Both the position numbers and the translations under genes were made by a program. Below the pieces are notes generated by a model, which saw only the letters and a program-made list of their open reading frames with translations, had not been told where the DNA came from and searched no databases. Shown here piece after piece: positions 1 to 25,691 of a stretch of DNA of 50,355 nt; positions within the stretch are counted from its first letter, which is position 1, and every line of letters starts with the position of its first letter. The stretch is taken from the NCBI GenBank assembly GCA_948466255.1, contig CAOJZV010000008.1, forward strand, positions 1 through 50,355. The letters are read 5' to 3'. Origin of the DNA: an uncultured Bacillota bacterium (lineage in GTDB: Bacteria > Bacillota_I > Bacilli_A > RF39 > UBA660).

Positions 1-40
1 CACCCCCCCTCGCCCCCCCCGCCCCCCCCGACACCCTATA
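1..40. other. C-rich low-complexity window edge
   Basis: The first 40 bases are almost pure C runs broken by single bases. This is foreign to the AT-rich surroundings and sits where the copy of the promoter module at 20144-20176 continues into a coding region. On the minus strand it would be the start of a gene read off the window. It is most simply a low-quality contig end extended through a poly-G tract, and I would not interpret its bases. Confidence 0.55.
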
Positions 41-62
41 CCCCCTACTTTATTTTAAGTAT

Positions 63-91
63 ATTATACCCCCCCCCCCTGGTTTTGGCAA
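63..91 (-). promoter_or_regulatory. Promoter with 11-G spacer tract (candidate phase-variable promoter, copy 1)
   Basis: On the minus strand a -35 box TTGCCA (86-91) and a perfect -10 box TATAAT (63-68) are separated by 17 nt, of which 11 (69-79) are an unbroken G run. The module reads leftward out of the window. The flanks match copy 2 at 20144-20176 closely, both upstream (the CTGGTTTTGGCAAGTATTTT side on the plus strand) and downstream, where the TTTA/AAAGTAGG leader is shared. With 17 nt the spacing is optimal, so this copy should be ON. The gene it drives is lost at the window edge; by analogy it may be a surface protein. Confidence 0.7.
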
Positions 92-17771: not shown

Positions 17772-17799
17772 AACACAGTTCAAAAGAACTGTGTTTTTT
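17772..17799. terminator. Bidirectional terminator
   Basis: Perfect 10-bp stem AACACAGTTC / GAACTGTGTT with an AAAA loop and T-runs on both strands. It serves the acidic protein gene and the convergent sigma gene. Confidence 0.9.
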
Positions 17800-18490
17800 A
17801 ATGCTTGTTATTTTTAATAAACTCCCTTAATATTTTTGTTAAAGCTCTCTTTTCTATTCTGGAAACATAACTTCTTGAAATTCCAAATTCTTTAGCAATT
17901 TCTTTTTGGGTTATTTCATCTTTACCATCTAATCCATAGCGTTTTATTATTATATCTTTTTCCCTTTCTGTTAAAACATTAAAATATTCTTTTAAAAGTT
18001 CTAAACTGTCTTGTTTGTAAAGATCTAAAGCAAAATCTGGTTTTGGAGTTTTTAGAATATCTAGAAATGTTATTACATTTCCTTCTTTATCAAATCCAAC
18101 ACTTTCATCGATACTTATATTTTTATTATTTTTTTTATCGCTTCTAAAATGCATAAGTATTTCATTTTCAATACATCTTGCACAATATGTGGTTAATCTT
18201 GTTTTATGTTTAAATGAATAACTATCTACACCTTTTATTAGCCCAATCGTTCCAATACTTATTAAATCATCTGCATCTTCTCTTCTATGATCATATTTTT
18301 TTACTATATGGGCAACTAATCTTAAATTATGTTCGATGAGTTTGCTTCTTGCTTCTTTATCTCCTAGATTTGCTTTTTCAATGTACATTTGCTCTTCTTC
18401 TTTGGTGAGCGGATCTGGAAATACATTGTTTGAATATGCAGCTGTTAAAATGTAAAAATCTTTAAGCAGCCATTTTAAAAAATTTTTCAT
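17798..18490 (-). CDS. sigK: SigK/SigE-type sporulation sigma factor
   Basis: 230-residue sigma-70 factor. Region 2 (LIEHNLRLVAHIVKKY, DADDLISIGTIGLIKGVDSY, CARCIENEILMHFR) and region 4 (LTEREKDIIIKRYGLDGK, EIAKEFGISRSYVSRIEKR) closely follow mother-cell sigma factors SigK and SigE, SigK most. The first 20 or so residues (MKNFLKWLLKDFYILTAAYS) are hydrophobic and occupy the place of the SigK pro-peptide, so membrane-linked proteolytic activation is possible. I see no interruption by a skin element. This is the best single hint of sporulation in the organism, together with the ytaF-like and LysM-GH18 genes. Confidence 0.85.
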   Translation of the reverse strand: MKNFLKWLLKDFYILTAAYSNNVFPDPLTKEEEQMYIEKANLGDKEARSKLIEHNLRLVAHIVKKYDHRREDADDLISIGTIGLIKGVDSYSFKHKTRLTTYCARCIENEILMHFRSDKKNNKNISIDESVGFDKEGNVITFLDILKTPKPDFALDLYKQDSLELLKEYFNVLTEREKDIIIKRYGLDGKDEITQKEIAKEFGISRSYVSRIEKRALTKILREFIKNNKH

Positions 18491-18584
18491 ACATCACACC
18501 TCTAAATAAGTATATGTGAATATTTTTCTTTAAAAACTAGGGACAAATTATATTTTTTATTTTATAATATAGATGGTGATAAAT

Positions 18585-19148
18585 ATGAATAGACCTTTTA
18601 CAGCAGATTCTTTGTGGACTTATGAAAACGGAGTTTTAAAAAACAAGCTTAATATTAAGGATTCTATGGAACTTGATTTAAAAGAGAAAGAAATTGTTAA
18701 TAAAAAACTGCCTAATATTAAATTAAATAGTTTTAAGATGGAGGATTTTTTGCATTTACACAATTTATTATTTAATGAGTTATACGATTTTGCAGGAAAA
18801 CTTCGTGATGAAAATATTGTTATGGATGGAATTATGCTTTGTAAAGCCGGTGTTGTTGAATTATGTTTAACTGATTTATTTAATACTTTAAAAGATATTG
18901 AAATTAATTCTATAGATGGTTTATGTGAATTTTTAGCCTATTATTATAGTGAGTTTTCGGTTATTGCTCCATTTAGAGATGGAAATGAAGTAGTGATTAG
19001 AAAATTTTTAGAAGATTTTGTTAAGAAATTTGGTTATGACTTTTCTTTTGAAAAAATAAATAATGAAAAACTTAAGGAAGCAGTTATTTATTCTTTCTAT
19101 CATGATACAAGCAAGCTAATTAGTGTATTTAAAAACTATATGAAATAA
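18585..19148 (+). CDS. Fic-fold protein with degenerate active-site motif
   Basis: 187 residues. The N-terminus VLKNKLNIKDSMELDLKE and the middle LLFNELYDFAGKLRDENI match Fic/DOC proteins, which normally transfer AMP or other groups to target hydroxyls. The catalytic loop HPFxxGNGRxxR reads APFRDGNEVVIR (128-139): the base His is Ala, and the Gly and Arg that hold phosphates are Glu and Val. It is therefore probably not an AMP transferase and may be a pseudoenzyme or have another chemistry. The start at 18585 has GGTGAT upstream; the ATG at 18573 lacks a ribosome-binding site. No antitoxin gene is adjacent. Confidence 0.78.
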   Translation: MNRPFTADSLWTYENGVLKNKLNIKDSMELDLKEKEIVNKKLPNIKLNSFKMEDFLHLHNLLFNELYDFAGKLRDENIVMDGIMLCKAGVVELCLTDLFNTLKDIEINSIDGLCEFLAYYYSEFSVIAPFRDGNEVVIRKFLEDFVKKFGYDFSFEKINNEKLKEAVIYSFYHDTSKLISVFKNYMK

Positions 19149-19163
19149 TATCATATAGTTTTT
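19131..19163. terminator. Bidirectional terminator overlapping two stop codons
   Basis: Perfect 13-bp stem AAAAACTATATGA / TCATATAGTTTTT. It overlaps the stop codons of the Fic-like gene and of the convergent surface-protein gene. Confidence 0.88.
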
Positions 19164-20116
19164 ATTATATATGGTTTATCACTTGTTCCTTCTCCAGATA
19201 AAGTTATATTTGACGTAAGGTAAATTGCGGGTGAAACAGCATAGCTGTCACTACGATTTACACCTTCAATATTCATGTTACCATAATAAGATGCGTAAAT
19301 CATTGTATATGAATAGTTTTCTGAAGGTAATGAAATAGTCCATAAGTTTCCTGATTTTGGAATAAGGAAATTTGTGTCTCTACAGTTTGCCCTATTATCA
19401 TAATGTAATTTCATATTCCCACATTGTGCTATATCTGAATTCGCCCTAATTACATCACTTGCACTCATTAAAGCTATTTTGCCTTTCCATGTTATACTTT
19501 TTTCTGATTTTATTTGATTTGTTAAATCTGCATTATTAATTAAAACTGGTCCTATATCCCATATATGTTCTTGAATTAAATTTTTAGCTTCGTTGCTTAA
19601 AGTACTATAGTAATCATTATTTAAATATGTATTTAATGATGCGTCATTAGTTACTGTACCTGATAAATCATTATGCGCAAAATTACTATTAATTGCCCAT
19701 GCATTACATCCGTATTTACTTGCTTGTGTACAGTATGTACTTGTAGAACTATTTCTTGTATCTGGAGTATCCCATGCTTTAATACCTATGTTTTCATTCT
19801 TCATGATTTTTAATGTATTATCGGATTCAATAGATATAATACGCCATAAGTCATTATCCAATTTTATATAGTTATTAGGTTCCGATCCTTTATACACGTA
19901 TCTACCACTTTCATATGTATCATTATATAATCCATCTCCTGATGTTGTTACTTTAGTTTTTAGTTCATTTATTGTTATTACTTTTTCTAGAATATTTCCT
20001 TTGGCTGTTATATTTATATTTGTTTGAAATGCTGCATATCCTACTGTCATTATAAATAATAATGTTAGGCTTGATATGATTATTATTTTTCTTTGTTTTC
20101 TTCGTCTTCTTCTCAT
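19151..20116 (-). CDS. Membrane-anchored surface protein behind a poly-G-spacer promoter
   Basis: 321 residues. MRRRRRKQRK is followed by a hydrophobic signal/anchor segment (about 11-30, IIIISSLTLLFIMTVGYAAF), so the bulk is extracellular. It has six Cys. The fold resembles the DUF6273-type lectin-like domain seen in gut Firmicutes surface proteins: LDNDLWRIISIESDNTLKIM early, and YAVSPAIYLTSNITLSGEG near the end. This assignment is by pattern only. The ATG at 20116 has AGGTG six bases upstream; a GTG at 20125 overlaps that site. The promoter at 20144-20176 has a 15-G spacer, so expression is probably switched by tract length. Confidence 0.75.
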   Translation of the reverse strand: MRRRRRKQRKIIIISSLTLLFIMTVGYAAFQTNINITAKGNILEKVITINELKTKVTTSGDGLYNDTYESGRYVYKGSEPNNYIKLDNDLWRIISIESDNTLKIMKNENIGIKAWDTPDTRNSSTSTYCTQASKYGCNAWAINSNFAHNDLSGTVTNDASLNTYLNNDYYSTLSNEAKNLIQEHIWDIGPVLINNADLTNQIKSEKSITWKGKIALMSASDVIRANSDIAQCGNMKLHYDNRANCRDTNFLIPKSGNLWTISLPSENYSYTMIYASYYGNMNIEGVNRSDSYAVSPAIYLTSNITLSGEGTSDKPYIIKTI

Positions 20117-20143
20117 ATTTTTCACCTACTTTATCTTAAATAT

Positions 20144-20176
20144 ATTATACCCCCCCCCCCCCCCTGGTTTTGGCAA
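20144..20176 (-). promoter_or_regulatory. Promoter with 15-G spacer tract (candidate phase-variable promoter, copy 2)
   Basis: On the minus strand TTGCCA (20171-20176) and TATAAT (20144-20149) are 21 nt apart, and 15 of those (20150-20164) are G. The same module at 63-91 has 11 G and a 17-nt spacer. Because sigma-A promoters need about 16-18 nt, loss of four G would restore optimal spacing; in this assembly the copy would be OFF or weak. Homopolymer length may be misassembled, which would itself be expected in a mixed population. Confidence 0.75.
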
Positions 20177-20213
20177 GTATTTTAAAGGATAAAATATGTA
20201 AAATGGTGTATAT

Positions 20214-20240
20214 AAAAAAACAGAATTAATCTGTTTTTTT
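20214..20240 (-). terminator. Terminator of the M16 peptidase operon
   Basis: AAAAAACAGA / TCTGTTTTTTT stem with the stop codon in its loop. Confidence 0.8.
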
Positions 20241-21503
20241 AGTTACTATAGTTCTAGTATTATTAGTAAAATCTAAAGAATTAATAAATCTTACACATTC
20301 TTCATAATTTAAGTTTTTATAAATGTCATATAAATTATATAATGGATGACCATATTTTCTTACTTGATAGTCTATTGAACGATTTACTTTTGCCACATTT
20401 TCACTCATTAAAATAATATCTTTAATTATATTTTTATGAATTAAATCAAAATCTTCTTTACTAATTTTTTTATCATTTACATTATCATAAATCTGTTCAA
20501 ATATATCTTTAACCTCTATTACTTCAGTATCAAAATCAATAAATAAAAAATTATCTTTATGGTCTAACATATAACGAACTGGATTTAAAATATTTTTATC
20601 TTCAAAACATTTTTTATTAAAATTAGAAACCCCACCAAATTTAATAGTTAAATAAATATTAATGTATGTAAGTATTTTACACAAATCCATATCTATGTCT
20701 TTAATATTAATTTTGTAAGCATTTTCTAAAATATTATTTGTAACATCTTTATAAATAGTTTCTTCGGCCTTATTAACTTCATTGGGTTCATTATATTTTT
20801 TCGTTTCGATTTTAGGCATATTTGTATAATCTAGTTTATCGTAATAATCTTTTATAAACTTAATTGTTTCATCTGGATCTACATTACCTGTAATCGTTAA
20901 TATCATATTAGATGGATGATAGAAAGTATTGTAACAATCATATAAAACATCAGGATTTATTTCTTTTATTGTTTCACAGTATCCTCCTACTGGAAAGCGA
21001 TAAGGTAATTCTTTAAAAGTATTAAGTAAAGTTGTATAATAACCAGCCTCAAATGGATTATCAAATCCAGCTTTTAATTCTTGGTCAATAATGCCCATCT
21101 CTTTTTCAACATTTTCTTTCGTATAGTATGGCTGAGTAACTAAATCAAGTAAAAGATTCAAATTTTCAAAAAATTTACTTGGTGATGCAAAATAATAGCT
21201 AGTAACATGTGAAGAAGTAAAGGCATTACTTTGAGCCCCATTTTGCTGGAATAAACTCATAATATCTCTATTATCTTTTTTAGCAAACATTTTATGTTCC
21301 AAAAAGTGAGCAGTGCCTAAAGGAATTTTAATAAATTCTTCTTTTAAATGAGGTTTAAATTCTATCGTACTGGCACCATAATTAGTTGTCATTTTTGCAA
21401 ATACTTCATGTCTATCCATCGGACAAATAAATACTTTAAGGCCACAGGTCAATGTTTCTTCATAAACATCTAAATCTAATTTTTTATAAGTTTTCTTTTC
21501 CAT
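20226..21503 (-). CDS. ymfH: M16-family zinc metallopeptidase, YmfH-like
   Basis: 425-residue M16 (pitrilysin-like) peptidase half with the inverted zinc motif HFLEH (H66, E69, H70) and a downstream glutamate in the ENVEKEMGIIDQEL helix (about 137-150). It has the length and sequence style of YmfH, the catalytic partner in the Firmicutes YmfF/YmfH pair. That pair is often annotated as associated with elongation factor P modification, on thin evidence. It overlaps the upstream ymfF-like gene by 20 bases, so the two are cotranslated and probably form a heterodimer. Confidence 0.85.
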   Translation of the reverse strand: MEKKTYKKLDLDVYEETLTCGLKVFICPMDRHEVFAKMTTNYGASTIEFKPHLKEEFIKIPLGTAHFLEHKMFAKKDNRDIMSLFQQNGAQSNAFTSSHVTSYYFASPSKFFENLNLLLDLVTQPYYTKENVEKEMGIIDQELKAGFDNPFEAGYYTTLLNTFKELPYRFPVGGYCETIKEINPDVLYDCYNTFYHPSNMILTITGNVDPDETIKFIKDYYDKLDYTNMPKIETKKYNEPNEVNKAEETIYKDVTNNILENAYKINIKDIDMDLCKILTYINIYLTIKFGGVSNFNKKCFEDKNILNPVRYMLDHKDNFLFIDFDTEVIEVKDIFEQIYDNVNDKKISKEDFDLIHKNIIKDIILMSENVAKVNRSIDYQVRKYGHPLYNLYDIYKNLNYEECVRFINSLDFTNNTRTIVTKKTD

Positions 21504-24221: not shown

Positions 24222-25667
24222 CTAAATTTTTTTATTTTTTGTTTTAGGACTTTCAAAATTTCTTCCTTTATTTATTTGCATGATTTGATAATTTTCTCTT
24301 AATCTTGTTAAAACAAAGTTTTCAATTTGTCTTATACGTTCCCTACTTACACCATACATGTCTCCAATTTCCTGAAGAGTTCTTGGGGTGTCATCTAATA
24401 AACCATAGCGCATACAGATTATTGTTTTTTCTTTTTTATTAAAATTATAATTTTCTAAAATACTAATGATTTGTTCCTTTTCAATAGCATTATGGACATT
24501 TTCAGTAAAATCAGCATGCTCATCAACTATAAAATCTCCTAACATACTATCTTCTTCTTCACCAATTGGTTTATCTAAACTGCTAGGCTGTAGATTTACA
24601 AGATTTTTTATTTTTTCTACTTCTTTAACATTTATTTTTAATTTTTCAGCAATTTGTTCATTTGTAGGATTTGTTTTTAATTCTTGGTATAATGTTTCCT
24701 CAGCTTTTCTTATTTTATTTATTAAATCTAAAATATGCACTGGTATTTTAATTGTGCGTTCTTTATCCTTGATATAACGACTAATACTTTGTCTTATCCA
24801 CCATAATGCATATGTAGAAAAATGACAATTTTTTTTAGGATCAAACTTTTCTATAGCTTTCATCATTCCAATAATACCTTCTTGAATTAGATCTATTGTT
24901 GGAGTTTTACTATATGTATAACGATAAGCCATTTTATAAACTAATTTAATATTTTTTTCAACAAATTCATCTCTTGTCTCTTTAGCAATCAATATAATTT
25001 CGTTTATGAGTTTGATTTTTTCAGTTTCACTAATATCTGAATATAGTTTTTCTTTTACCCATGGGTATACATCACAAAAATACTCTAGATATTGTTTTTT
25101 CTCTTCAGGCGTTGCTTCATTATAATATGACATTTTTATACTTTTTAACATGCGTCTTTGTTTTGCAGTTGTCATTTTTTTATATTCAGGAAATTTATTT
25201 ATAAAGTCCTTTTCTATATAATCTGTTACTTTTCCTTCTTTAAATTTTTCCTGCTCTTTTCTTTCAGAAACTGGTTTTACTTCGGCTATTATTGGATTAG
25301 CAGCCTTTAACTTTGTCTTCTTTTCTGCTTCTTCTTTTTTGGCTTTAGCGACTTTTTCTTTTTCAGCCTTAACTCTAGCAGCTTTTTCTTTTAAATATAA
25401 TGGATTAGATAAAGCCTTTTTTATTGTTTGATAAACTGCAACATTTAAACTACTTATCTCCTCATTAGTAAAACCGTTTATCTCTCTATGATTATCTAAA
25501 TTTTTGCCATATGCTCTTAAAACAAGATCCTGTTGCTTTTCGTCTAAAGAATTAACTGCTTTTTTAATTTCTTCTAAATCATAATTTTTATATAATTCAA
25601 TTAAATTATTAGGTTTACGACCAGGACGTTTATTTTTGAACACTACTTTTTTACCTATTCCCCCCAT
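24222..25667 (-). CDS. RpoD-family RNA polymerase sigma factor with extended N-terminus
   Basis: 481 residues. Region 2 (KNIKLVYKMAYRYT, TIDLIQEGIIGMMKAIEKFD, FSTYALWWIRQSISRYIKD), region 3 (RTIKIPVHILDLINKI) and region 4 (LQEIGDMYGVSRERIRQIE) are complete and of primary-sigma type. The first 230 residues replace usual region 1.1: a helical segment LDEKQQDLVLRAYGKNLD, a Lys/Glu/Ala coiled stretch (about 96-125), and a further helical domain. The start at 25667 is fixed by AGGAGGAG seven bases upstream, and because the ATG at 25688 lies upstream of the predicted transcription start. It could be the housekeeping sigma factor. Confidence 0.87.
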   Translation of the reverse strand: MGGIGKKVVFKNKRPGRKPNNLIELYKNYDLEEIKKAVNSLDEKQQDLVLRAYGKNLDNHREINGFTNEEISSLNVAVYQTIKKALSNPLYLKEKAARVKAEKEKVAKAKKEEAEKKTKLKAANPIIAEVKPVSERKEQEKFKEGKVTDYIEKDFINKFPEYKKMTTAKQRRMLKSIKMSYYNEATPEEKKQYLEYFCDVYPWVKEKLYSDISETEKIKLINEIILIAKETRDEFVEKNIKLVYKMAYRYTYSKTPTIDLIQEGIIGMMKAIEKFDPKKNCHFSTYALWWIRQSISRYIKDKERTIKIPVHILDLINKIRKAEETLYQELKTNPTNEQIAEKLKINVKEVEKIKNLVNLQPSSLDKPIGEEEDSMLGDFIVDEHADFTENVHNAIEKEQIISILENYNFNKKEKTIICMRYGLLDDTPRTLQEIGDMYGVSRERIRQIENFVLTRLRENYQIMQINKGRNFESPKTKNKKI

Positions 25668-25691
25668 AACATGTCTCCTCCTTGACAATTT

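Follow-up and report, generated by a model that had tools for sequence, protein, structure and literature searches.

Within the stretch of 50,355 nucleotides analysed here (the window), the minus-strand gene at 19151-20116 stands behind a promoter whose spacer consists mostly of G, and the locus raises the question of whether this homopolymer serves as a phase switch of a surface protein, as the first-pass annotation had suggested. The promoter was confirmed as TTGCCA-AAACCA-G15-TATAAT (20176-20144, minus strand), with the two boxes 21 nt apart and 15 of these positions being G, as had been described. It comprises the -35 box TTGCCA (20171-20176), which matches TTGACA at five of six positions, the conserved prefix AAACCA (20165-20170), which leads from the -35 box to the run and is common to the copies in the source genome, the G15 homopolymer proposed as the slippage switch (20150-20164), and the -10 box TATAAT (20144-20149). 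A ribosome-binding-site-like AGGTGA (20122-20127, minus strand), recognised by its letters, lies 5 nt upstream of the ATG at 20116. Slipped-strand phase-variable promoters are marked by a homopolymer that separates clear -35 and -10 boxes, and this arrangement was found here. The rarity ascribed to poly-G in such AT-rich DNA was borne out by calculation, as, at 28% GC, only ~6e-7 runs of G15 or C15 would be expected per window. The consensus scanner, whose spacers were limited to 16-18 nt, missed the promoter.

The M16 peptidase gene upstream is followed by a terminator-like stem-loop (20208-20246, minus strand; fold z -6.6 together with an inverted repeat), which the consensus scanner left unlisted because the stem is A+T-rich. 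The stem-loop lies between that gene and 19151-20116, so that the promoter is expected to drive a transcription unit of its own. An invertible promoter was rejected, since no inverted repeats flank the promoter; the search beside it returned only the terminator-like stem, and an 11-nt A+T-rich inverted pair 402 nt apart near the promoter is likely due to chance. On the other side, a gene for a Fic/DOC-family protein (window 18573-19148) is convergent with the surface-protein gene. A second promoter copy, TTGCCA-AAACCA-G11-TATAAT with a 17-nt spacer (63-91, minus strand), lies at the low-quality contig edge; the first 35 bases of the window are low-quality-looking poly-C and adjoin this copy (window 1-79).

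The controlled gene and the proteins behind related promoters

The gene at 19151-20116 encodes a 321-aa protein for which Pfam, a paralog alignment and an AlphaFold model indicate an N-terminal membrane anchor and a DUF6273 ectodomain. The protein has a basic N-terminus and a single hydrophobic segment and matches DUF6273 (Pfam E 2e-6), and no LPXTG-type motif was visible in it; its earlier designation as an anchored surface protein fits the N-terminal anchor. For the AlphaFold model (pLDDT 85), only one fold match was significant, to part of structure 9qa6, an IgA peptidase of Thomasclavelia ramosa (E 6e-9; TM 0.48 on the query, rmsd 8.6), and it is no more than a weak lead.

Among the ORFs downstream of such promoters in the family, 127 of 133 carried an N-terminal hydrophobic segment, compared with 10 of the 40 window ORFs used as controls. 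Together with the domain matches, these counts indicated that the targets are surface determinants, as is the case for slipped-strand phase-variable promoters. The surface-protein families differed by genus: the family MRRRRKRRKQRK...GYAAFQTN was found behind the G-run promoters of the source genome, example targets in other genera carried LamG, BspA-type leucine-rich repeat or Gp10_C domains, and one target from another genus had a DUF7507 match below threshold. Within the genus, the paralog alignment indicated that the anchor was kept and the ectodomains were divergent. Type IV pilin-like proteins (GFTLIELLAVIVILA) were observed behind G-run promoters in five genera. In a subset of the source-genome loci, six in number, the G-run promoter was followed by a conserved leader (about CATTGAATAAAGTGTCATTATTCGTTAT), with the gene starting ~90-105 nt downstream; a known leader RNA was rejected, as no Rfam match was obtained in the seven loci searched.

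Promoter copies and their spacing

The source genome (G000), of which the window is contig C8, is represented by an assembly of 1.05 Mb that is 68% complete. It contains 20 runs of at least 8 G, of which 16 abut TATAAT, one abuts TATAAA and one is split from TATAAT by CC, the remaining two being low-quality contig-end sequence. With a G7 copy added, GGGGGGGTATAAT was found 17 times vs 0.016 expected, and the reversed-pattern control gave 0 matches; the whole-genome motif search thus indicated that the promoter is not a one-off. Almost all copies read ACTTGCCAAAACCA-Gn-TATAAT, with n = 7 to 17 and ACTTGCCAAAACCA as the shared upstream piece, and nearly all carry TTGCCA or TTGTCA as the -35 hexamer. 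The core TTGNCAAAACNAG had 13 exact matches in this genome, 12 of them with the run, and TTGCCAAAACCA was essentially confined to G-run sites.

Comparison with related genomes revealed hundreds of copies of the same architecture, nearly always before exported surface-protein genes. Of the 193 family genomes sampled, 24 carried GGGGGGGTATAAT, with up to 76 copies; at genus level this motif was present in 11 of 44 species, and GGGGGGGGTATAAT was found in 29 of the 394 genomes examined from the class. The C-strand equivalent CCCCCCCTATAAT had just 2 matches in the 193 family genomes, which places the G on the coding strand. These counts in relatives are minima, as the form found in genome G005, TTGACAAACGT-G9 or G11-TGATATAAT, in which the run is set apart from the -10 box, escapes the motif. 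On contig C3 of G005 (18750-18780), which also bears intact G9 and G11 copies, one run is broken as G5-A-G5, and this promoter may possibly be a locked copy. In genome G216, runs recur ~every 1.05 kb in tandem gene arrays. Contigs of several relatives end at G runs, which indicates that assemblies break there. A scan of named-organism contigs returned two unrelated Reyranella matches, both without a promoter, and searches of viral contigs for variants of one locus that differ in run length yielded mostly chance matches without a -35 box. A phage-type gene (MAQAGNLRPF...) was seen behind a common flank, a run and TATAAT, with G10, G11 and G13 in the IMG/VR contigs L372, L381 and L405, respectively, and G10 in L253 from genome G470, and its promoter could be a run-length-variable one in phages or prophages.

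Where the -35 box was unambiguous, the total -35/-10 spacing formed a symmetric peak at 19 nt (17 nt, 7 promoters; 18 nt, 20; 19 nt, 53; 20 nt, 19; 21 nt, 8), and 83% of 171 family promoters lay at 18-20 nt, in a count that broke ties in the -35 choice towards 18. Ordinary TTGACA-TATAAT promoters of the same genomes peaked at 17 nt (50 of 126). The non-G part and the G count of the spacer were 10+9 in G176, 9+10 in G190, 8+11 in G118, 7+12 in G249, and 6+14 or 5+13 in the source genome. The G count fell with prefix length (Spearman -0.56 over 56 groups), and the variance of the per-genome totals was smaller than under permutation (p 0.002). The G count therefore compensates for the non-G part, which indicates that the run works as a spacer, and the total spacing appears to be under selection. 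The earlier expectation that 11 G would give a 17-nt spacer was correct as arithmetic, but its assumption that 17 nt is the active state needs revision, because G-run promoters centre on 19 nt across genera. The 21-nt copy of the window, which had been expected to be weak or OFF, lies two above this family set-point and is probably so in the sampled population.

Run turnover and competing explanations

Paralogous promoters of genome G030 with near-identical flanks and no flank indels carried G12, G14 and G11. When paralog pairs sharing at least 75% flank identity were compared, the run differed in 20 of 26 pairs in the source genome, 24 of 28 in G013 and 11 of 18 in G249, and in 0 of 24 in G176 and 5 of 194 in G216. 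Run lengths ranged from G7 to G17 in the source genome and G013 and were near constant in G176 (G9 in 11 of 11) and G216 (G9 in 29 of 30). Each genome is one assembly in which the G counts of long runs are possibly off by 1-2, and exact counts are uncertain in runs of at least 13. The orthologous site beside the M16 peptidase gene carried G15 in the source genome, T16 in the sister species G035 and a run-free promoter in a third species, G008. T16-T30 runs also stand ahead of other anchored-protein genes in G035, and in its 267 kb the runs of at least 13 were coding-strand T before anchored-protein genes, or the same motif at contig edges, with one other, A31, inside such a promoter region. 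Since the run base is exchangeable and its position is kept, slippage is favoured over a G-specific mechanism, and the homopolymer character, not G itself, seems to be under selection. Loss of mismatch repair was rejected as the driver, as MutS was found in 13 of 14 genomes checked, the source genome included. The exception, G013, in which PF01624 was not found (92% complete, absence uncertain) and runs span G7-G17, is suggestive only. With MutS present in the source genome, slippage would be moderate, as in porA.

The proposed phase switch of a surface protein is supported by these comparative data on copies, gene class and spacing, and can be extended from one locus to a genome-wide promoter set; we consider it quite probable that the 20144-20176 promoter belongs to a set of promoters, spread over the genome, that vary in phase through slipped-strand mispairing. 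In each of them, a short conserved prefix and a homopolymer (G, or T in the sister species) would separate the -35 box from the -10 box, and the promoter would sit ~25-130 nt upstream of an anchored-surface-protein gene. Replication slippage would add or remove single bases in the run, and the altered -35/-10 distance would change the strength of that promoter alone, heritably and reversibly, so that cell lineages would each display their own combination of surface proteins. Selection would keep the total spacing at ~19 nt, an edge-of-range set-point near the upper limit of what a sigma-70-type polymerase tolerates, at which one or two slipped bases would have the largest effect; alternatively, the optimum may be shifted by the run itself. 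In E. coli, expression is high across 15-19 nt spacers and falls beyond (PMC8695583). For the 21-nt copy of the window, weak activity or an OFF state is predicted in most cells. We infer slippage in living cells, its reversibility and its effect on expression, which the apparent selection on total spacing supports indirectly; the ON length may be 17 or 19 nt, and the benefit would be evasion of immunity or phages, or a change of niche. Four points count against the phase-switch reading: the near-constant G9 in G176 and G216, which is not expected of a fast switch, the presence of MutS in most genomes including the source genome, the disagreement between the 19-nt mode and the 17-nt optimum published for other poly-G promoters (PMC7864442), and the possible error of 1-2 in the assembled G counts of long runs.

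The near-invariance of G9 in G176 and G216 would suit a dedicated promoter class, in which a MerR-like DNA-distorting activator or an alternative sigma factor reads a 19-nt spacer with a rigid G run and the length is held constant. MerR-family regulators act on promoters with 19-20 bp spacers (PMC8113463), and long spacers were found here as well (family mode 19 nt; 21 nt in the 20144-20176 copy); the strong strand bias for G and the two sigma factors encoded in the window (17798-18490, by Pfam; 24222-25688, by sequence) also speak for this class. However, a MerR-type operator was rejected, as the spacer is made up of AAACCA and the G run, with no inverted repeat or palindrome there. The wide range of run lengths in the source genome and G013 also argues against such a class, as do the orthologous site, which has a T run in G035 and an ordinary spacer in G008, and the -35 boxes, which vary among genera yet stay near consensus; we regard the class as unlikely. 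A structural role of G, in which a coding-strand G run sets promoter strength through quadruplex-like or A-form-like DNA or an RNA-DNA structure without any switching, would explain why G lies nearly always on the coding strand, and a different rise of G-run DNA could be reflected in the 2-nt longer mode (19 vs 17). This role is very unlikely, as poly-T occupies the same place in G035, which weakens any reading by G chemistry only, and as a free-standing G structure would not need the one-for-one trade-off of run with prefix length. Finally, a base-calling or contig-end artefact, which the frequent stopping of contigs at or right after runs, the poly-C start of the window and the uncertain counts in runs of at least 13 might suggest, is scarcely credible, because many unrelated assemblies place the runs exactly between a -35 and a -10 box, compensation brings the totals to 19 nt, the genes concerned are of a consistent class, flanks vary among genera and most copies are contig-internal.

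Beyond the phase-variable set itself, we propose tentatively, at somewhat less than even confidence, that tens of surface genes stand on hair-trigger promoters tuned to 19 nt, whether as a range edge or as a run-shifted optimum, with G and T exchangeable as the run base. Such a slippage switch would tune itself and operate on the scale of the genome, and it would have formed anew many times within one large uncultured family and, at lower density, within its class.

Known systems and biological meaning

The type of mechanism is known from porA, TP0126 and vlp. The vlp genes of Mycoplasma hyorhinis are clustered at one locus. They resemble the present set in that the promoter region of each family member contains a homopolymer and each gene switches independently (PMC10502178), but combine poly-A with lipoproteins, whereas poly-G or poly-T, dispersed genes, membrane anchors and many ectodomain types were found here. 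For porA of Neisseria meningitidis, surface expression is high with 11G, 2-fold lower with 10G and 13-fold lower with 9G, and variants arise at about 2e-5 (PMC3639595). This gene likewise carries poly-G within the promoter spacer of a surface-protein gene, but as one locus for one protein, whereas the G-run promoters number in the tens per genome and belong to a lineage that is distant at phylum level; its published optimum of 17 nt (PMC7864442) also differs from the 19-nt mode found here. Treponema pallidum TP0126 (an OmpW homolog) shares the poly-G between the boxes, the surface-protein gene and the dependence of expression on total spacing, but is a single gene of such geometry with an optimum of 17 nt, and the T. 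pallidum tpr genes have poly-G elsewhere in the promoter (PMC7864442). Switching has been measured in porA (PMC3639595), in TP0126 (PMC7864442) and in vlp (PMC10502178).

Within open-access text, a switch of this kind was unreported for this group (e.g. RF39 phase variation), and for uncultured Bacilli-like bacteria its scale, the set-point at 19 nt and the exchange of G for T appear to be new. So far, promoter-spacer slippage has been described in a few pathogens, at individual loci or in small gene families. In the present group, which is large, mostly uncultured and small in genome size, entire surface repertoires seem to be built on it as a permanent arrangement. With the 19-nt compensation and the G/T swap, spacing as a selected trait becomes testable. 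Collectively, these bacteria probably switch their surface coat gene by gene through slippery DNA runs, and heavy surface bet-hedging is predicted for them.
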